Assembly (NCBI GenBank): GCA_028281325.1 | Contig: JANQKC010000010.1 | Coordinates: 248,001 to 312,000 of the forward strand | Length of the DNA stretch: 64,000 nucleotides | Reading direction: 5' to 3' | DNA from: Alphaproteobacteria bacterium | GTDB lineage: Bacteria; Pseudomonadota; Alphaproteobacteria; UBA8366 | In this document: positions 32,589-43,035 of the stretch, one piece after another | Layout of the letters: each line of letters starts with the position of its first letter | Position numbering within the stretch: position 1 is the first letter of the stretch | Program-made: the position numbers and the translations under genes | Notes under the pieces: generated by a model | The model's database searches: none | Seen by the model: only the letters and a program-made list of their open reading frames with translations | Told to the model about the DNA's origin: nothing

Positions 32589-33350
32589 ATGACCGATCAC
32601 GATGCAGACCTGTCCGTCGACGCGACCTGCCGGACGCTGGTCCGCAGCGCGCAGACCGCCGCGTTGGCCACGGCCGAGCGCGCGAAGGACGCCTGGCCCT
32701 ACGCGTCCTTGGTCGAGACCGCCTGCGATCATGCCGGCCGGCCGATCCTGCTGCTGTCCGACCTTGCGGACCATACGAAGAATTTCACCGTCGATCCGCG
32801 GGTTTCGCTGCTGTTCGACGGCACCGCGGGTCTGGCCGCCCCGCTGACCGGCGCGCGGGCGACCCTGCAAGGACGCATCGAACGGCTCGGCGAAGACGAC
32901 GCAGCCTCGCGGCGGCGCTACCTGGCGCGGCATCCGGGGGCCGCCGAGTATGCCGATTTCGGCGATTTCAACTTCTACCGCGTGACGCCGGACCGGTTCC
33001 ATCTGGTCGCCGGCTTCGGCCGCATCCATTGGGTCGACGCGGCGGACGTGCTGTTCGATACGACGGGAACGGCGGCGCTGGCCGACCACGAGCACGATAT
33101 CGTGGACCATATGAACGACGATCATGCGGACGCCGTCGACCTGTACGCCGCCATGCTGACGCCCGACGCGGGCGCGGGCTGGCGGATGACCGGGATCGAC
33201 CCGGAAGGCGTGGACCTGCGGCGCGAGGGGCGGCTTTTGCGGCTCGCGTTCGACGGGACCGTGCATGACGCCGAATCCGCCCGCGCGATGCTGGTACGAT
33301 GGGTTTCAGCGGCGCGAAACGGCAAATTTCCGCCCGATACGGCAACTTAG
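32589..33350 (+). CDS. HugZ-like heme-utilization / pyridoxamine-oxidase-fold protein
   Basis: A 253-residue protein with an N-terminal split-barrel flavin/heme-binding domain (about residues 8-165; ATAERAKDAWPYASLV, LLSDLADHTKNF, GFGRIHWV) and a C-terminal DUF2470 domain (about 172-245; DHMNDDHADAVDLYA). This two-domain layout is that of HugZ heme oxygenases and of related proteins without known activity. It lies 88 bp after the Sco gene. Heme breakdown is possible but not proven; the key C-terminal heme loop of HugZ cannot be judged by eye. Confidence 0.8.
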   Translation: MTDHDADLSVDATCRTLVRSAQTAALATAERAKDAWPYASLVETACDHAGRPILLLSDLADHTKNFTVDPRVSLLFDGTAGLAAPLTGARATLQGRIERLGEDDAASRRRYLARHPGAAEYADFGDFNFYRVTPDRFHLVAGFGRIHWVDAADVLFDTTGTAALADHEHDIVDHMNDDHADAVDLYAAMLTPDAGAGWRMTGIDPEGVDLRREGRLLRLAFDGTVHDAESARAMLVRWVSAARNGKFPPDTAT

Positions 33351-33477
33351 AACGTATCTAAAGGTGGTAGTTGATTCCCGCCCGGATGACGGATATCACT
33401 TTGACGATAGCAAGGTGCCGGCCATATTGACGGTCGCGCCGCGGCAAACCGGATCATTCGACGCTAAGGATCGAAAG

Positions 33478-33496
33478 GCCGATCGAAAAGATCGGC
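33478..33496 (+). promoter_or_regulatory. hairpin in the pckA leader
   Basis: GCCGATC (33478-33484) and GATCGGC (33490-33496) form a perfect 7-bp stem with the loop GAAAA, ending about 10 bases before the GGGAGGA ribosome site of pckA. A second GATCGAAA copy precedes it. It could affect mRNA stability or translation of pckA. Confidence 0.5.
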
Positions 33497-33521
33497 GGCA
33501 TCCCACGGGAGGACCATCGTA

Positions 33522-35114
<1,593 letters not shown>

Positions 35115-35141
35115 CAGCTCGGTACAGAGCACGCGAGGCAT

Positions 35142-35165
35142 CGGCCGGTCCCTCGGGGCCGGCCG
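35142..35165 (+). terminator. terminator after pckA
   Basis: Perfect 7-bp stem CGGCCGG (35142-35148) and CCGGCCG (35159-35165) with a 10-nt loop, followed by TTTCCGTT, 27 bases past the pckA stop in a convergent gap. Confidence 0.7.
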
Positions 35166-35186
35166 TTTCCGTTCGGGGCGAAATAG

Positions 35187-35627
35187 CTATTCGAACAAGC
35201 TGGCCGATACCGCGCCGACCACCACGTAGCGAGCACCCTTGCCGATCGCGACCAGGACAAGGAATATCGGGAAGCGGACGCCAAGGACCCCGGCGGCAAA
35301 GGTCAGCGGGTCGCCGACGACCGGCATCCAGGACAGCAACAGCGCCCAGACGCCATAGCGTTCGACCCAACGGGAGGCCCGGTCCAGCGCGTCGGGACCG
35401 ACGGGAAACCAGCGCCGGTCGCGCCACCGCAGGCAAAAACGCCCCAGCAGCCAGTTCACGACCGCGCCGAGCGTGTTGCCGGCCGTCGCGATACCGATCA
35501 GCAAGGCGAGATCGAATCCCTTAGCGGAGATCAGCGCCGCCAGGACCGCCTCGGACGACAGCGGCACCAATGTCGCCGCCAGAAAAGCGGTCAGGAACAG
35601 ACCCGTATACCCCGCGCCGATGATCAT
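35187..35627 (-). CDS. YqaA-family (DedA-like) inner-membrane protein
   Basis: A 146-residue protein with four hydrophobic segments. The N-terminal FLAATLVPLSSEAVLAALI, the central NTLGAVVNWLLGRF and the RYGVWALLLSWMPVVGDPLTFAAGVL block are typical of YqaA/SNARE-associated proteins, small relatives of the DedA family. DedA proteins are linked to lipid scrambling and membrane potential; the role of YqaA is unknown. Confidence 0.88.
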   Translation of the reverse strand: MIIGAGYTGLFLTAFLAATLVPLSSEAVLAALISAKGFDLALLIGIATAGNTLGAVVNWLLGRFCLRWRDRRWFPVGPDALDRASRWVERYGVWALLLSWMPVVGDPLTFAAGVLGVRFPIFLVLVAIGKGARYVVVGAVSASLFE

Positions 35628-35646
35628 GCCGCAGGCGACTCCAAGC

Positions 35647-36249
35647 TCAGCGCGGCCGGGCCGTCAGGATCAAGCGGGGCGAGGGTTTCCGATGGCCTTC
35701 GATAGTCCAGACATAGACCGGCGCCACGGCTTGCATGACCTCGGTCGCGTTATGCTTGACCACTTGACCTTCGGTCTGGATACGAAGGGTCCCGCGCATC
35801 ACCAGTCCGCGTTCCGCCAGGTCGTCGGCTATTTCGGTATTCGGCTTGTCGCCGACGATCCGGATCGTACCGTCGGGATGCTGCGATATGGTCAGCAACC
35901 GCGCGTTCTGCCGCACGAAATTGAATGTCCGCTGTTGCAGAATATTGCCGACTTTCTTGTACCGCACCCGAAAGGCCGCATTGTCGAGATAAGCGACCTC
36001 GGTGAAGTTCCGGTCACGCCGCAAATCTCTTTCGACGGCCGCGACATTCTTGTTCAAATCGTCGCGCGAAAGCTCGTTCTTGGCAATCTTCTCCAACAAC
36101 GGCACATGGACCAGCATGCCCTGATACTGGAAGTTATAGTTGCCGTCGGGCGTGATCCGGAGATCGGCCTTGAAATCCATCGGCATATAGCACCCGGACA
36201 CCACGCCGACGACCAGCGCGACAAGGAAGATTCGGCGAAACAGTTTCAT
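35647..36249 (-). CDS. putative lipoprotein of unknown function
   Basis: A 200-residue protein with a type II signal peptide: a basic start (MKLFRR), a hydrophobic core, and the lipobox VSGC with Cys at about 19. The mature part has no membrane segments and is rich in beta-type sequence (ADLRITPDGNYNFQYQG, DGTIRIVGDK, TLRIQTEGQVVKHN), suggesting a soluble periplasmic beta domain. I do not recognise the family. It follows the nitrile-hydratase-like genes by 22 bp on the same strand, so it may be in their transcript. Confidence 0.75.
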   Translation of the reverse strand: MKLFRRIFLVALVVGVVSGCYMPMDFKADLRITPDGNYNFQYQGMLVHVPLLEKIAKNELSRDDLNKNVAAVERDLRRDRNFTEVAYLDNAAFRVRYKKVGNILQQRTFNFVRQNARLLTISQHPDGTIRIVGDKPNTEIADDLAERGLVMRGTLRIQTEGQVVKHNATEVMQAVAPVYVWTIEGHRKPSPRLILTARPR

Positions 36250-36271
36250 CGAACCGTCAGCCCGCCGGCCG

Positions 36272-36922
36272 CTAAACGCCGCCGGGATTGTCGGGCAGGC
36301 TGACGCCGATCAGGCAATCGCGGGTAACGAGTTTCGCCAAATCGGCCTCGTCCATCCCATCGGTTCCCCTCGGACGCATCGGCAGGACGAGATAGCGCAG
36401 GTCCGCCGTGCTGTCGTGCACGCGCACCTCGACATCGTCGGGCAATGTCGTGCCGAATTCTGACAGGATCGCCCGCGGTTCCCGCACGGTGCGACTGCGG
36501 TAAGCGCGCGATTTGTACCAATCCGGAGGCGGGCCGAGCAGGCCGCGCGGATAGCAGGAACACAGAGTGCAGACGATCATGTGATGCGTCTCGGGCGTGT
36601 TCTCGACCGCCCGGATCGGAATGTCCCCGGAATCGATCCCGATCGATGCCGTCGCCTCGTTGACGTTTTCCATCAGCTTCGCCTTGAAATCCGGGTCGGT
36701 CCAGGCGCGCGCGATGACCTCGGCGCCCAAAGCCGGCGTCCGCGAGTCCAAATGCTCGATCTGGCGGCGCAGGTCGTCCGCGGTGAAGACGCCTTTCTCG
36801 ATCAGCAACTCGCCGAGCGCTTCCGCCATCACCTGGTGGTGGGTAAAGGGCGAATCCTCGATATCGGGCTGAAACGTCTGGTCGTGGTCATGGCCGTGCG
36901 AATGGTCGTGATCGTGCGTCAT
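36272..36922 (-). CDS. nitrile hydratase alpha-like / thiocyanate hydrolase gamma-like subunit
   Basis: A 216-residue protein with the low-spin Co/Fe site of nitrile hydratases: VCTLCSCYPR, with predicted ligands C118, C121, S122 and C123. VCTLC (Thr rather than Ser) favours cobalt. After the site, LLGPPPDWYKSRAYRSRTVREPR is typical of the family. Most nitrile hydratases have Trp where this has Arg126; an Arg there is, as I recall, found in thiocyanate hydrolase. The N-terminus MTHDHDHSHGHDHD is a His/Asp-rich tail not expected in the family and may bind metal. The ATG at 36922 lies 11 bp after the stop of the C-terminal beta-like gene. The substrate is not determined. Confidence 0.85.
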   Translation of the reverse strand: MTHDHDHSHGHDHDQTFQPDIEDSPFTHHQVMAEALGELLIEKGVFTADDLRRQIEHLDSRTPALGAEVIARAWTDPDFKAKLMENVNEATASIGIDSGDIPIRAVENTPETHHMIVCTLCSCYPRGLLGPPPDWYKSRAYRSRTVREPRAILSEFGTTLPDDVEVRVHDSTADLRYLVLPMRPRGTDGMDEADLAKLVTRDCLIGVSLPDNPGGV

Positions 36923-36933
36923 GTCATCCTTCC

Positions 36934-37218
36934 TCAGGCCGGGTCCAGCCAATTCTCGTAAAAATCGACGACAGTCGTGTCCTTCGGCCCGCCCTGGTAA
37001 TCGGCCCACAGGTCGGACTGCCGGAAGATCACGCGATACAGCGGCAGCCGGTCGGCGTCGGTGATCCCGTAGGCGAGTTGCTCGGGGTTCCGATAACTGC
37101 CGGCGATCGCCTGGACCTCGCCGACCTTGCCGCGGGTGAAATAGGGCGCCCGCACATGCCCCGGCGGATAGGCCCGCCGGACGCGCACGCGGTCGCCGAC
37201 CGAGAAACGCTCGCTCAT
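36934..37218 (-). CDS. nitrile hydratase beta-like, C-terminal half as a separate subunit
   Basis: A 94-residue protein equal to only the C-terminal part of a nitrile hydratase beta chain: VGDRVRVRRAYPPGHVRAPYFTRGKVGEV, then LYRVIFRQSDLW and VVDFYENWLDPA at the end. The conserved Arg in the GHxR segment, which in classical enzymes touches the oxidised active-site cysteines, is present. The N-terminal half is the preceding gene, joined by an ATGA overlap. The beta chain is therefore naturally split, as in thiocyanate hydrolase and toyocamycin nitrile hydratase, and is not the product of a stop mutation. Confidence 0.88.
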   Translation of the reverse strand: MSERFSVGDRVRVRRAYPPGHVRAPYFTRGKVGEVQAIAGSYRNPEQLAYGITDADRLPLYRVIFRQSDLWADYQGGPKDTTVVDFYENWLDPA

Positions 37219-37538
37219 GATTTGCGCGCCTCCGTCCAGCGTTTTTCGACCTCGGCCATCTTACGGCCGAGTTCGTCGACGCTGATCACCTTCTTCTGCA
37301 GCAGAACGTTCGAGATCGCCGCGCACCAGCGTTCGTAGTAGTTGAGTTCGTTATAGACCCCGGGGCCGAGGTCTTCGATGTTGCGGCGCATCTCGTCGGT
37401 CCGCAGCAACTCGCGCTGGCCGCACAGCATGCGGATCGCATCCATCCGCTTCTCCCACGGCTCGCTCTCATGTCCGTCGGTCGGGATCGAGCCGGCGTCC
37501 TGCCCGCCCATGTCATGCACGCGTCTTGGTCCGGTCAT
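37215..37538 (-). CDS. nitrile hydratase beta-like, N-terminal half as a separate subunit
   Basis: A 107-residue protein matching the N-terminal half of nitrile hydratase beta: RVHDMGGQDAGSIP at the start, EPWEKRMDAIRMLC, and NELNYYERWCAAISNVLL with the conserved Tyr-Tyr-Glu-Arg-Trp block, whose Arg reaches the metal site in classical enzymes. I chose the ATG at 37538 because GGTGGAG lies 9 bases upstream; a GTG at 37553 would overlap that site. Small activator proteins of cobalt nitrile hydratases are related to this half, so an activator or dual role is possible. It is the first gene of the set. Confidence 0.85.
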   Translation of the reverse strand: MTGPRRVHDMGGQDAGSIPTDGHESEPWEKRMDAIRMLCGQRELLRTDEMRRNIEDLGPGVYNELNYYERWCAAISNVLLQKKVISVDELGRKMAEVEKRWTEARKS

Positions 37539-37599
37539 ATTGGAAATCTCCACCTCGTCCGCTACAGTATGGAGCGGCCGGCTGGTCCAGGCAACCCGC

Positions 37600-38223
37600 C
37601 TAAACCAGCGGATTCATGCAGTGTTCGCGATACGCCGGGCGGTCCTGCAACCGCGCGTACCAGGCCTCCAGATTCGGCATCGCCGGACGGTCGTCGACCA
37701 GCGTGAACCAGCGGAAGGCATGGACGCCGACCGGCATGTCGCCGAGGGTGAACTCGTTACCGGCAACGTAGTCGGTCTTGGCGAGCTGCTTGTCGAGAAT
37801 ACCCCACACCTTATGGCCCAACTTGATCGCCGCCTCGATGGCGGCCATGTCGCGCTCCGCCTCGGGCGTCCGCACCAGACCCCAGAAGATCGGCGTAATC
37901 TGCGGTACGGCGACCGACAATTTCCAGTCCATCCATTTATCCGCGGCCGCCCGCGCCTGCAGGTCGTCGGGCCAGATCGTTCCGCCGGGGGCGTGTTTCG
38001 CCGCGAGATACCGAATGATCGCGTTCGATTCCCACAGGATCAGACCGTCATCCTCAATGGTCGGCACCAATCCGTTCGGGTTTTTCTCGAGATAGTCCGG
38101 CTGGTCGTTCCCGCCGAACGGTCCGCCGATATCCTCGCGGTCGTATTCGATGCCCAGTTCGCCGCACAGCCACAGCACTTCCATCACATTGGACGACGTC
38201 TTGCGTCCTAGAATTTTCAACAT
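37600..38223 (-). CDS. glutathione S-transferase family protein
   Basis: A 207-residue protein with an N-terminal thioredoxin-like domain (about 1-80; NGLVPTIEDDGLILWESNAIIRYLA is the glutathione-binding block with cis-Pro and the Glu-Ser pair) and an all-helical C-terminal domain containing FTLGDMPVGVHAFRW (N-capping motif). The likely catalytic residue is a Ser or Thr near residues 9-11 (KTSSN). The substrate is unknown. It lies just upstream, on the same strand, of the nitrile-hydratase-like genes. Confidence 0.88.
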   Translation of the reverse strand: MLKILGRKTSSNVMEVLWLCGELGIEYDREDIGGPFGGNDQPDYLEKNPNGLVPTIEDDGLILWESNAIIRYLAAKHAPGGTIWPDDLQARAAADKWMDWKLSVAVPQITPIFWGLVRTPEAERDMAAIEAAIKLGHKVWGILDKQLAKTDYVAGNEFTLGDMPVGVHAFRWFTLVDDRPAMPNLEAWYARLQDRPAYREHCMNPLV

Positions 38224-38268
38224 GCGTCACTCCCTTCATTACGGTGCAAGTCGGTATCGATGATTTCG

Positions 38269-39339
38269 TTAGGTCGCAATGCCGGCCACGTCGCCGCGCG
38301 ACAGGCCGACCGATTCGGCCGCCGCCAGAATTTCTTCCCAGGTCGCGTCGTCGACCGGCACGCCCTTGGCTTCGCGCTCGGCGCGTGTCGCCCGTTCCGG
38401 ATCGCCCGGGACCAGTACCGGCTCGTCCGGGTTCTGTGGCGGCGACGCCTTTACATGCGCGATCGTGGCGTCGACCTCGGACTTATAGAAGTCGTCGTCG
38501 ACCATCCGGCGCGGGTCGAAGATGATCGCCAGCATGCTGTTCAGGATGGTGTCGTCCTGGCGTTGCGTCTCCGTGCGCATCGTCTGACCGCCGCTCAGCA
38601 CGCCGGCCAGCATTTCCGCCATCAGCGCCATACCGTAGCCCTTATGCCCGCCGAACGGCAGCACCGCGCCATAAGGCTGCGTGTACATCACGTTGGGATC
38701 GGTGGTCGGCTTACCGTCCGCGTCGATCAGCGCCCCTTCCTGTACCTGTTCGCCCTTGTTCTTGGCGACCCGGACCTTGCCCATCGCGATCACGCTGGTG
38801 GCCATATCGAGCAGCGTCGTGGGGTTGTTGTCGGTACCCGGCATGATGCAGGTGTACGGATTGGTGGCGTATCGCGCATCGCCGCCCCGGAAAGGCGCAA
38901 CCAGCGGCTTGTGTCCGATCACGTTGACATAATGCATTGAGATCATGCCGGCCTCGGCGGCTTGTTCGGCCCAGGCGCCGATGCGGCAGAGATGGAAGCT
39001 GTTGCGCAGCGACAGGATGCAGACGCCGTGCTCCCGCGCCCGGTCGATCCCCAGCGCCATCGCCTCGCGGCCAATCACCTGTCCGTAGCCGGTCTGCCCA
39101 TCGAGCACGAGGATCGTCCCCTCGTCCTTCACCACCTTGACATGCTGGTTCATCGCCAACTCGCCGGTCTTCGCGCAGGCGATGTAGCGCGGCAGCATGC
39201 CGACGCCGTGGCTGTCGTGACCGGTCAGGTTGGCGTCGACCAGATTGTCCGCCACCAGCGCCGGTTCGTCGCCCGTGCTGCCCGCGGCCGTGCAGATCGC
39301 GCGCACGACGGCGCGCAGTTTGTCGTGCTGAATCAGCAT
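38269..39339 (-). CDS. Ldh-family malate/L-lactate-type dehydrogenase
   Basis: A 356-residue NAD(P)-dependent 2-hydroxyacid dehydrogenase of the type II malate/lactate dehydrogenase family (YbiC-like). DANLTGHDSHGVGMLPRYI (catalytic His region) is near residue 40, SLRNSFHLCRIGAWAEQAAEAG near 109, and PFGGHKGYGMALMAEMLAGVLSG near 228. Several oxidoreductases share this fold (malate, sulfolactate, ureidoglycolate and delta-piperideine enzymes), so the substrate is uncertain. AAGGAAGGA precedes the start. It is 70 bp downstream of polA on the same strand. Confidence 0.88.
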   Translation of the reverse strand: MLIQHDKLRAVVRAICTAAGSTGDEPALVADNLVDANLTGHDSHGVGMLPRYIACAKTGELAMNQHVKVVKDEGTILVLDGQTGYGQVIGREAMALGIDRAREHGVCILSLRNSFHLCRIGAWAEQAAEAGMISMHYVNVIGHKPLVAPFRGGDARYATNPYTCIMPGTDNNPTTLLDMATSVIAMGKVRVAKNKGEQVQEGALIDADGKPTTDPNVMYTQPYGAVLPFGGHKGYGMALMAEMLAGVLSGGQTMRTETQRQDDTILNSMLAIIFDPRRMVDDDFYKSEVDATIAHVKASPPQNPDEPVLVPGDPERATRAEREAKGVPVDDATWEEILAAAESVGLSRGDVAGIAT

Positions 39340-39409
39340 GATGTTTCCTTCCTTAGAGGGCGTCCCGCTTGCCGCGGGGTTCTTGGTTTTGGCGGTACCC
39401 GGAAATGCG

Positions 39410-42199
39410 TCAGTGAGCCTGATCCCAGTTATCGCCGATCCCGGCGTCCACGACCAGGGGTACGTCGAGCGCGACCGCCGGTTCCGCCGCGCCGGCCATC
39501 ACGTCCTTCACCGCGGCGACGGTGTCGTCGATCTGGTCCGCGGGCACCTCGAAAATCAATTCGTCATGGACCTGCAGCAGCATGTCGGCGTCGAGTTTCC
39601 GCGCGGCCAAGCCTGCCGGCACCCGGATCATCGCGCGTTTGATGATGTCCGCCGCCGTCCCCTGGATCGGCGCGTTGATCGCCTGCCGTTCGGCGTAGTT
39701 CCGGCGCATCGGGTTCTTGTCGACGATGCCCGGCAGATGGATGCGGCGGCCGAATAGGGTGGTCACCATGCCAGTCGCGCGGCACTCATCGCGGGCGCGT
39801 TCCATATAGTCGTTGATGCCGGGATAGCGCTCGAAATAGGTCTCGATATAGTCGCGCGCTTCCTTCTGCGCGATGCCGAGCTGCCGCGCCAGCCCGAAGG
39901 CGCTGATGCCGTAGATGATGCCGAAATTGATCGCCTTGGCCTGGCGGCGCACCAGCGGGTCCATATCGTCCATCGGCACGTCGAAGACCTGCGACGCGGT
40001 CAGCGCATGGATGTCGGCGCCGTCATGGAAGGCGTCGATCAGCGATTGAATGCCCGCCATATGCGCCAACACGCGCAGTTCGATCTGGCTGTAGTCGAAG
40101 GACACCAGCTTGCAGCCCTCGCGCGCGATGAAGGCCTGGCGGATCTTGCGACCTTCCTCGGTCCGCACGGGAATATTCTGCAAATTCGGATCGGTCGAGG
40201 CGAGCCGCCCGGTCTGCGCCCCCGCCATCGCATAGGACGTGTGGATGCGTTGGGTGGTCGGATTGATCTCCTCGACCAGCTTGTCGGTATAGGTGCTTTT
40301 CAGCTTGGAAATCTGCCGCCAGTCGAGCACCCGTTTCGGCAGATCGTGCCCGGCGGCGGCGAGGCCTTCCAAGACGTCCTGATCGGTCTTGTAGGCGCCC
40401 GTCTTGGTCTTTTTCGCGCCCGGCAGGCCCATCTTGTCGAACAGGATTTCGCCGAGCTGTTTCGGCGAACCGATGTTGAAGTCTTCGCCCGCCAGGGTAC
40501 GGATCTCGTCTTCAAGTCCGCCCATGCGTTGGGCGAAATCGCGGCTCAGTCCGCGCAAGATCTCGGGGTCGACCAGCACGCCCTTGCGTTCGAGATTGGC
40601 CAACACCGAGATTAGCGGCCGTTCGATGGTCTCGTAAACGGTGGCCATACGCTCGGTGACCAAACGCGGCTTCAGCGTCTTGTGCAGCCGCAGCGTGATG
40701 TCGGCATCTTCCGCCGCGTAGCCGCACGCCTTGTCGAGCGGCACGTAGTCGAAGGTCACCTGCGATTTGCCGCTACCGACCACGTCCTTGTACTTCACCG
40801 TGGTCATGCCGAGATGGCGGTCGGCCAATTCGTCCATGCCGTGTTTGTTGGACCCGCCGTCCAGCACGAAGGACAGCAGCATCGTGTCATCGACGGGCGC
40901 CACCTCGACCCCGTGCCGGGCGAGGATCAGCGCGTCGTATTTGATGTTCTGCCCGATCTTCAGGACCGACGGGTCCTCGAGCAGCGGCTTCAGCATGTCG
41001 AGCGCGCGTTTGAGGCGAATCTGCTCGGGCGCGCCGTCCGCCGATTCCGGGTCGCCGCCGCCGGCGAGATCCAGCGCGCCCTGTCCGTTCGGATTGCGGT
41101 GGGCGACCGGGATGTAGCACGCCCTGCCCGGCGTCACCGACAGCGAGAGGCCCACCAACTCGGCCACGGTCGCGTTCAGCGAGGTCGTCTCGGTGTCGAC
41201 CGCGACGAAGCCGGCGTCGGTCGCCGCCTCGATCCAGGCCGCCAGTGCCTTCTCGTCCTGCACCAATTCATACTCGACCTCGTCGGGCGGCGTGTCCGCT
41301 TCGTCGGCCGACTCGATGCCGAGGCTGCTTTCGACCCGCGACACGATCGACTTGAAGCCCTGCTCCTGCAGGAAGGCGATCAGCGCCTCGGGGTCGGGGT
41401 CGCGCCGGCCGAAGCTGTCCAGGCCCGCCTCGACCGGAACGTCGTCGCGCAACTGCACGAGCTGGCGGGAAATCCGCGCCAGTTCCGCGTTCTCGATCAG
41501 GTTCTGCCGCCGTTTCGGCTGCTTGATCTCCTCGGCCCGGTCGAGCAGCGAGTCCAGGTCGCCGTACTCGGTCAGGAGCTGCGCCGCGGTCTTGACACCG
41601 ATCCCCGGCACGCCCGGCACGTTGTCGCTCGAATCGCCGGCCAGCGCCTGCACCTCGACCACCTTGTCCGGCCCGAGGCCGAACTTCTCGACCACCTCGT
41701 CATGGCCGATCACCTTGTTCTTCATGGCGTCGAACATGGACACCTTGTCGGTGACCAGCTGCATCAGGTCTTTGTCCGACGACACGATGGTGACCTCGGC
41801 GCCCGCATCGGTCGCCTGTTTGGCGTAGGTGGCGATGATGTCGTCCGCCTCGTAGCCCGGCATCTCGATCGCGGGGACGTTGAACGCCTCGACCGTCGCC
41901 TTCACCAGGTCGAACTGCGGCACCAGTTCCTCCGGCGGCGGCGGGCGATGCGCCTTGTAATCGGCATAGATGTCGTTGCGGAAGGTCTTGCGCGCCGCGT
42001 CGAAAATGACCGCGAGACAGTCCGCGTCGGTATCGGTCAGGATCTTCATCAGCATCTGCGTGAACCCATAGACCGCGTTGACGGGCGTTCCGTCCGGGCG
42101 AGTCAGCGGGCGCACGGCATGGAAGGCGCGGAAGATGAAGCCCGATCCGTCGATCAGGTAGACATGCTTGGGCGCGGAGGTCTCGGTTGACTTTGGCAT
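39410..42199 (-). CDS. polA: DNA polymerase I
   Basis: A 929-residue polymerase with three domains: an N-terminal 5'-3' flap nuclease (about 1-290; YLIDGSGFIFRAFHA, MPGYEADDIIATYA, GDSSDNVPGVPGIG), a proofreading exonuclease (about 320-520) and the polymerase (about 560-929). Proofreading looks intact, with VDTETTSLN, NIKYDALIL and AAEDADITLRL holding the exo I-III acids. The polymerase motifs are VSFDYSQIELRVLAH (A), RRQAKAINFGIIYG (B) and LLQVHDELIFEVP (C). It fills gaps after repair and primer removal. Confidence 0.98.
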   Translation of the reverse strand: MPKSTETSAPKHVYLIDGSGFIFRAFHAVRPLTRPDGTPVNAVYGFTQMLMKILTDTDADCLAVIFDAARKTFRNDIYADYKAHRPPPPEELVPQFDLVKATVEAFNVPAIEMPGYEADDIIATYAKQATDAGAEVTIVSSDKDLMQLVTDKVSMFDAMKNKVIGHDEVVEKFGLGPDKVVEVQALAGDSSDNVPGVPGIGVKTAAQLLTEYGDLDSLLDRAEEIKQPKRRQNLIENAELARISRQLVQLRDDVPVEAGLDSFGRRDPDPEALIAFLQEQGFKSIVSRVESSLGIESADEADTPPDEVEYELVQDEKALAAWIEAATDAGFVAVDTETTSLNATVAELVGLSLSVTPGRACYIPVAHRNPNGQGALDLAGGGDPESADGAPEQIRLKRALDMLKPLLEDPSVLKIGQNIKYDALILARHGVEVAPVDDTMLLSFVLDGGSNKHGMDELADRHLGMTTVKYKDVVGSGKSQVTFDYVPLDKACGYAAEDADITLRLHKTLKPRLVTERMATVYETIERPLISVLANLERKGVLVDPEILRGLSRDFAQRMGGLEDEIRTLAGEDFNIGSPKQLGEILFDKMGLPGAKKTKTGAYKTDQDVLEGLAAAGHDLPKRVLDWRQISKLKSTYTDKLVEEINPTTQRIHTSYAMAGAQTGRLASTDPNLQNIPVRTEEGRKIRQAFIAREGCKLVSFDYSQIELRVLAHMAGIQSLIDAFHDGADIHALTASQVFDVPMDDMDPLVRRQAKAINFGIIYGISAFGLARQLGIAQKEARDYIETYFERYPGINDYMERARDECRATGMVTTLFGRRIHLPGIVDKNPMRRNYAERQAINAPIQGTAADIIKRAMIRVPAGLAARKLDADMLLQVHDELIFEVPADQIDDTVAAVKDVMAGAAEPAVALDVPLVVDAGIGDNWDQAH

Positions 42200-42319
42200 G
42201 CGGACTCACACAAGAAAGGATGATAAGAATCAGGATGCCGGATCGCACCCCGGCCGGCAAGACGTCGCGTCGCACGGCTGCCGATTTCCCGAACACTTTA
42301 CCTTAGGAACGGAGCCCCC

Positions 42320-42712
42320 ATGACCATTACCGAAATGATACCGCTGCTCAACGTGGAGGACGCCGACCGCAGCATCGCCTTCTATCGCGACGCGCTGGGC
42401 TTCGAGGCGGCGCAGACATTCGAGGCGGACGGCGCGACGGTTTGGGCGATGCTCGCCAGCGGCGACACCAAGCTGATGATCAACCAGTCGGATCACGCCG
42501 ACAGCACGGCGCGGCAGGACGCGGCCAGCTACGGCGACGTGGTGCTGTATTGCTATGTCGAGTCGGCCCGCGACCGGCATGCGGACCTGACGGCGCGCGG
42601 CGTGACGGTCGGCGAGGTCACGACCGAGGCCTACGGTATGGAGGAGTTCCTGTTGCGCGACCCCGACGGCTACGAGATCGCCATCGGCAGCCGGTTGACG
42701 CAGATCGCCTGA
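42320..42712 (+). CDS. VOC-family (glyoxalase/bleomycin-resistance) protein
   Basis: A 130-residue protein with two beta-alpha-beta-beta-beta modules. It starts MIPLLNVEDADRSIAFYRDALGFE and ends FLLRDPDGYEIAIGSRL, the usual first and last strands of the VOC fold. Its metal ligands would be in these strands (Glu near the end). It may detoxify a small electrophile or bind a drug; the substrate is unknown. GGAG lies 5-6 bases before the ATG. Confidence 0.85.
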   Translation: MTITEMIPLLNVEDADRSIAFYRDALGFEAAQTFEADGATVWAMLASGDTKLMINQSDHADSTARQDAASYGDVVLYCYVESARDRHADLTARGVTVGEVTTEAYGMEEFLLRDPDGYEIAIGSRLTQIA

Positions 42713-42717
42713 ACCGC

Positions 42718-42897
42718 CTAATGCGCGGCGGCCGCCTTCGCGCCCTTCTTCAGGACGAAGCGCCGGCCGCAATAGGGGCAGTCGATCTCATTCTTCTCCC
42801 CCATGTTGAGAAAGACGCGGGGATGGCCCAGCGCCCCGCCGCCACCGTCGCAGACGACCTGCGGGCTATCGACCTCGACCGTTTCTACGGGTTCCAT
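42718..42897 (-). CDS. zf-CHCC zinc-finger protein (NDUFS6-like)
   Basis: A 59-residue protein that is almost entirely one zinc finger: VVCDGGGGALGHPRVFLNM, then IDCPYCGRRFVL with the ligands Cys, His, Cys, Cys in family spacing. This matches bacterial relatives of the complex I subunit NDUFS6. The start is the ATG at 42897 with AAGGAGGG upstream; the longer frame to 43002 runs into the ABC gene promoter. A role in complex I is possible by homology. Confidence 0.85.
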   Translation of the reverse strand: MEPVETVEVDSPQVVCDGGGGALGHPRVFLNMGEKNEIDCPYCGRRFVLKKGAKAAAAH

Positions 42898-43035
42898 GGC
42901 AGCGCGACCCTCCTTTGCGCAAATGTGAACGGCAATGCCGCCGCCGGGCGTTGATTGACCCGCCGGCCCGGCGGATGATACCGAAAGCACCGTTTCGTTC
43001 AACCATTCACATTCCGACGGGATCGATCCGCCGAC

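Follow-up and report, generated by a model that had tools for sequence, protein, structure and literature searches.

Three adjoining minus-strand genes in the window (the whole stretch of DNA analysed, 64,000 nt) belong to the nitrile hydratase/thiocyanate hydrolase superfamily: their domains score above cut-off, and both the metal-site motif and the clamping arginines are present. From sequence comparison, we consider it probable that this trio encodes a cobalt-containing hydratase of three subunits that acts on nitrile-like substrates, with the N-terminal half of the beta subunit (beta-N) doubling as a maturation chaperone. The three-subunit kind of enzyme is already known. The branch to which the window's trio belongs is widespread across phyla and, as far as we found, appears uncharacterised; a search for a characterised enzyme within this Arg-motif branch returned none.

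Nitrile hydratases (NHases) are cobalt enzymes of industrial use and as a rule depend on a separate activator. Whether a free beta half takes the place of that activator could be tested directly in a large, seemingly activator-free group, whose different pocket residue could also yield enzymes acting on other substrates. Its placement between thiocyanate hydrolase (SCNase) and classical NHase, on an unrooted tree, would further help in working out which of the arrangements is the older.

Genes and active site of the trio

The trio consists of beta-N (37215..37538, minus strand; 107 aa from an ATG start), the SH3-like C-terminal half of the beta subunit (beta-C; 36934..37218, minus strand; 94 aa) and the alpha chain with the metal motif (36272..36922, minus strand; 216 aa). 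All three scored above the Pfam cut-off against NHase_beta_N (PF21006, 69.2 bits), NHase_beta_C (PF02211, 79.5 bits) and NHase_alpha (PF02979, 257.5 bits), respectively, which confirms the three genes called in an earlier sequence-only reading of this DNA. The beta-N and beta-C genes overlap by 4 bases (ATGA), 11 bases separate beta-C from alpha, and a purine-rich stretch precedes the start of each gene. Against NCBIfam TIGR01323, the alpha chain scored 242.3 bits, slightly below the cut-off of 249.85, and it was also matched by the TIGR03793 profile. The best PDB sequence match of beta-N was SCNase beta (2dd4_B, E 3.6e-8), and beta-C matched residues 129-219 of a Co-NHase beta subunit (3qyg_B, E 2.5e-16). 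An AlphaFold2 model of beta-N (pLDDT 89.4) had SCNase beta and NHase beta as its top Foldseek matches (best 2dd4_H, E 3.8e-4) and superposed on 2dd4_H at 1.6 Å across 84 residues. The proposed kinship with three-subunit enzymes was supported.

The alpha chain carries the sequence VCTLCSCYPR, in which CTLCSCYPR (36545..36571, minus strand) contains the C-x-L-C-S-C motif of the superfamily, with Cys118, Cys121 and Cys123, as well as Arg126, as placed by the alignments and the residue table. Beta-N Met50 and Arg51 (37386-37391, minus strand) align with SCNase beta Arg90 and Arg91, beta-N Arg52 matches SCNase Arg92, and beta-C Arg23 (37150-37152, minus strand) aligns with SCNase alpha Arg55. In solved relatives, the equivalents of Arg51 and Arg23 clamp oxidised cysteines, two of the metal-site cysteines being oxidised after translation. 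The three cysteines and both clamping arginines were invariant in 86 aligned split, activator-less loci, with the window counted separately, and the window shares them. The replacement of Trp by Arg in the metal-site motif, reported in the sequence-only reading, was upheld: the residue after Tyr-Pro is Arg in the window, as in SCNase gamma (Arg136), whereas 24 of 33 classical alphas have Trp. The PDB entry 3vyg contains the Trp variant of gamma at position 136. At the position of SCNase beta Arg90, the 86 loci mostly have Leu, Met or His, with Arg not among the residues listed; Arg is present there in all five fused loci of the SCNase clade and in one further locus (L062). We take gamma Arg136 and beta Arg90 to set the thiocyanate selectivity of SCNase jointly, and the window has only the former.

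The alpha chain starts with a His/Asp-rich tail, MTHDHDHSHGHDHD (36881..36922, minus strand), which may bind metal. This tail had been singled out as special and did not prove to be so, as many classical cobalt alphas have the same kind of tail and SCNase gamma starts with a similar DH-rich one (MSADHDHDHDHDHDHKPAPM). Predicted alpha tails had a median of six His in split loci and likewise six in classical fused loci; the tail therefore does not mark the branch and was dropped as a group marker. A His-rich stretch also lies between the beta and alpha parts of the opisthokont NHase (PMC3323583), which, compared by description, is like the window in this stretch and differs in being one fused beta-alpha chain. 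In two loci, beta-N is fused to alpha via a His-rich linker (L063:5524-6841 and L024:5527-6588). Beta-C lies downstream of the fusion in the former, no beta-C was found in the latter, and both fusions recall the eukaryotic beta-His-alpha arrangement.

Split beta and placement among relatives

Relatives were collected in one scan of genome contigs, which yielded 56, and loci from Pseudomonadota and Actinomycetota genomes were then added. Nearly all of the 56 had separate beta-N and beta-C. After deduplication, the set comprised 136 alphas, from 89 split, 38 fused and nine incomplete loci (89 of the 127 classifiable loci were split). Split loci span several phyla: carriers include Pelagibius, Oceanibaculum, Tistlia, Paraburkholderia, Nitrospinota MAGs and Binatota MAGs, as well as Streptomyces, Rhizobium and Planktothrix plasmids. 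In RefSeq, the halves from Rhizobium and Planktothrix bear the label 'SH3-like domain-containing protein'; on the Streptomyces plasmid, only beta-C is so named, beta-N being named 'nitrile hydratase'. In the Rhizobium plasmid locus L190 and the Paraburkholderia locus L048, the order is beta-C, alpha, beta-N, with beta-N at the place of the classical activator; the genes that follow encode aquaporins and transporters for cobalt or nickel.

The stability of the split arrangement, claimed earlier from the ATGA overlap, is borne out by its recurrence and by selection. The nearest relative (L013) keeps the same three open frames, with amino-acid identities of 91, 95 and 87% to the window trio, and dN/dS between the two was 0.14, 0.04 and 0.10, indicating purifying selection on each of the three genes. 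Apart from the split itself, nothing suggests a sequencing artefact or a fused operon in decay. This selection, the recurrence of the split in several phyla (89 deduplicated loci) and the intact metal and Arg residues refute that reading, which we regard as extremely improbable. A frameshift or assembly error, named earlier as a way in which the split could be spurious, is ruled out by the conserved open frames and the recurrence.

The alpha tree comprised 80 rows, was unrooted and had bootstrap values that were not settled. In it, SCNase gamma grouped with actinobacterial loci (100/100), and the classical fused alphas formed a branch with 4ob1 and 1v29 (100/100); the window lies outside both. 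Three split loci, two of them from Streptomyces and the third being L078, also fall in the classical branch. Between the SCNase clade and the classical branch lie 51 split rows, mostly with the Arg motif and including the window, whose alpha sits in a 13-row alphaproteobacterial clade (100/97). A test of the 51 rows as one clade gave no rejection (p-AU 0.395), an outcome that falls short of demonstrating a clade; we call them a group because the tree is unrooted and its bootstraps are not settled. In the beta-N tree, split beta-N, fused beta-N and activators were fairly well separated, but this tree, with 95 columns and long branches meeting, is not strong evidence. Firm clustering inside a characterised three-subunit family, a possibility raised in the sequence-only reading, was not seen for SCNase, whose clade excludes the window alpha. 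Within that clade, the actinobacterial loci L160-L164 combine a fused beta, a YPR-type alpha (CTLCSCYPR, CALCSCYPR or CSLCSCYPR) and an activator-like gene, and their alphas group with SCNase gamma with support of 98-100; from their sequences, they are possible two-subunit thiocyanate hydrolases.

Split beta chains were said in the sequence-only reading to be known from SCNase and toyocamycin nitrile hydratase (TNH, ToyJKL). SCNase has one, and TNH has three subunits, of 21.2, 10 and 11.4 kDa, forming a heterohexamer of the type (alpha beta gamma)2 (PMC8574189). The NHase of Streptomyces canus (ScNHase) is encoded in the order anhD-anhE-anhA with no activator gene, and forms an AnhD2E2A2 complex of subunits of 10.41 (AnhD), 11.35 (AnhE) and 21.33 kDa (AnhA), in which AnhD was shown to be both a subunit and a self-subunit-swapping chaperone (PMC7329996). 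From the masses, we infer that AnhD is the N-half. The window's trio resembles ScNHase in having three genes, with beta in two, and in their order, the two beta parts preceding alpha; a dedicated activator gene is not reported for the S. canus enzyme. The trio resembles TNH in its three subunits, presumably assembled in the same way.

A search of the first loci for the ScNHase masses found none; Streptomyces loci in which the motif reads YPL or YPV later matched the ScNHase and TNH masses (e.g., 21.33, 10.39 and 11.39 kDa in L219). These mass-matched loci fall in the classical block of the alpha tree; the window has the YPR motif and a His-rich tail. The neighbours of two of them include, by eye, 4-hydroxyphenylpyruvate dioxygenase-like genes and not toyocamycin genes. 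From these matches, ScNHase and TNH probably lie outside the window's group, a conclusion that rests on masses and not on sequences. TNH, which by mass comparison resembles the same Streptomyces type as ScNHase, further differs from the window in having a biosynthetic substrate. The SCNase of Thiobacillus thioparus (PDB 2dd4, 2zzd) shares with the window the split beta, CTLCSCYPR and the DH-rich tail but differs in its separate clade, beta Arg90, gene order and activator within the operon. Classical cobalt NHases (PDB 4ob1, 1v29, 3qxe) share the metal motif, clamping arginines and fold, and many have His-rich tails; unlike the window, they have a fused beta, mostly Trp after Tyr-Pro and a neighbouring activator gene, and the window alpha lies outside the clade of 4ob1_A and 1v29_A.

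Activator and cobalt supply

We defined an activator as a second beta-N-like (PF21006) gene and searched for it near the loci and genome-wide in 47 carrier genomes. None was found near the window trio, so the earlier statement that no separate activator gene is visible nearby held at the locus; the window's own genome has one elsewhere, in a classical operon on contig C21. Of the 82 deduplicated split loci whose flanks were long enough, 80 had no second beta-N-like gene nearby, and such a gene was found near 27 of 29 fused-beta loci. Genome-wide, exactly one PF21006 gene was present in 35 of the 47 carriers. Extra matches in five genomes (G406, G410, G416, G426 and G430), one of which overlaps alpha itself, look like second split loci or marginal matches, given the alpha counts. 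Activators were confined to six genomes that have classical operons, where they scored about 25-48 bits and served as a positive control, and to one genome of the SCNase clade (G440), leaving about 40 of 47 carriers with no activator-like gene. Across the tree, split beta and missing activator yielded only two to three independent pairs and were not significantly associated; since there were too few independent changes, we claim no significance for this link.

As the branch is usually without a helper gene, one of the half-subunits probably does the helper's job. Beta-N would then act also as a self-subunit-swapping chaperone that loads cobalt into alpha, with AnhD of S. canus as precedent. 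Maturation of the trio by the activator of the C21 operon, with beta-N being only structural, is an unlikely alternative that draws on the presence of a classical operon with activator both in the window genome and in that of its nearest relative (G398); help in trans is possible in the window genome for this reason. The lack of an activator-like gene in most split-locus genomes argues against it, as does the description of self-subunit swapping as subunit-specific (PMC7329996), and we retain the chaperone role of beta-N as the preferred reading. The window genome also has a second NHase alpha-beta pair (G000:C14:210596-211769; L012:7561-8785), about 37 kb before the left edge of the window. 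It has a full-length beta, the unusual motif CTLCSCTAY and a long tree branch, and no activator-like gene was found beside its alpha and beta.

Use of cobalt is indicated indirectly, by predicted cobalt transporters beside the trios of relatives. CbtA adjoins the trio in L014, L131-L134 and the Rhizobium locus L190, accompanied by CbtB wherever the locus extends far enough. In the Paraburkholderia loci L048 and L165 and the Streptomyces locus L189, the neighbours are transporters of the NixA/NicO type. A search for CbtA in the window's own genome found none. Aquaporin genes adjoin the trio in L048, L165, L189 and L190.

Proposed reaction and alternative substrates

In the proposed enzyme, alpha, beta-N and beta-C would form one protein, probably an (alpha, beta-N, beta-C)2 heterohexamer. 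Alpha Cys118, Cys121 and Cys123 would hold cobalt(III), with two of them oxidised after translation and clamped by beta-N Arg51 and beta-C Arg23, as their equivalents are in solved relatives. The site would hydrate the C-N triple bond of a small, nitrile-like compound. With Arg126 where Trp is usual, the pocket would be more polar, so a polar or anionic nitrile would be more likely than an aromatic one. A broader proposal, which we put forward tentatively, is that the Arg-motif split-beta group forms a third functional class with its own small polar or anionic cyano substrate, self-maturing via a free beta-N that is both subunit and cobalt-loading chaperone, while dedicated activators are confined to the fused-beta and SCNase lineages.

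The neighbourhood of the trio gave no substrate clue. The trio lies in a tight same-strand run of polA and genes for an Ldh_2-family dehydrogenase, a GST, beta-N, beta-C, alpha, a lipoprotein and a VTT protein. The GST-like gene (37600..38223, minus strand; PF13417/PF13409/PF02798) is the upstream neighbour, 61 bases from beta-N, and the lipoprotein-like gene (35647..36249, minus strand; no Pfam or NCBIfam match) is the downstream neighbour, 22 bases from alpha. Both flanking genes reported in the sequence-only reading do exist, but only the closest relatives share this layout: the GST is retained beside the trio in L013 and L015, and lipoprotein relatives were seen in those two only (75% and 39%, respectively). 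We read this linkage as no more than local synteny. Our neighbour survey of the window and relatives showed neither an amidase nor any other catabolic gene that recurs next to the trio, and operon partners were dropped as a substrate clue. An Rfam search of window positions 33000-43000 gave no match. On plasmid p1 of Planktothrix agardhii (NZ_LR882951.1; L191), the split trio adjoins GST, asparagine synthase (asnB), NADAR and TauD-like genes, surroundings that look like a biosynthetic cluster.

Thiocyanate hydrolase, which has the same three-chain design and converts thiocyanate to carbonyl sulfide and ammonia, had been suggested as an identity for the trio and is not favoured; we judge it quite unlikely. 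The two share the split beta, the YPR motif with the equivalent of gamma Arg136, the DH-rich tail and the arginine at SCNase Arg92, and SCNase beta is the best match of beta-N in both PDB sequence and Foldseek searches. Against this, the window alpha scored 210.6 bits with the SCNase gamma model TIGR03887, 81 bits under its cut-off of 291.45, and lies outside the SCNase clade, and the window has Met at beta Arg90, the Arg that is unlisted in the 86 split loci and present in the five SCNase-clade fused loci and L062; the identity was rejected on these three points. The gene order also differs, being alpha-beta-gamma-activator in SCNase, i.e., betaC-betaN-alpha-activator (PMC7193024), and betaN-betaC-alpha without an adjacent activator in the window. 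A different hydratase on the same scaffold, acting for example on cyanamide, an N-cyano compound or another small polar cyano metabolite and not a general NHase, is unlikely, although the new substrate or different cobalt enzyme suggested in the sequence-only reading may yet apply, as no characterised enzyme was found in the branch. It would fit the Arg-motif pocket, the branch apart from both characterised groups, the aquaporins beside Streptomyces, Rhizobium and Paraburkholderia trios, which suggest a small solute, and the genes around the cyanobacterial trio; however, these surroundings are context only, and no conserved pathway genes were found near the window trio. We keep the three-subunit hydratase of nitrile-like substrates as the preferred reading.

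A further observation concerns the genome of a Candidatus Binatia relative (that of L058), in which about 17 short partial matches to the NHase_alpha profile lie within 13 kb (G436:C1:2510638-2523649); this run could be a leader-gene array of the NHLP RiPP type.
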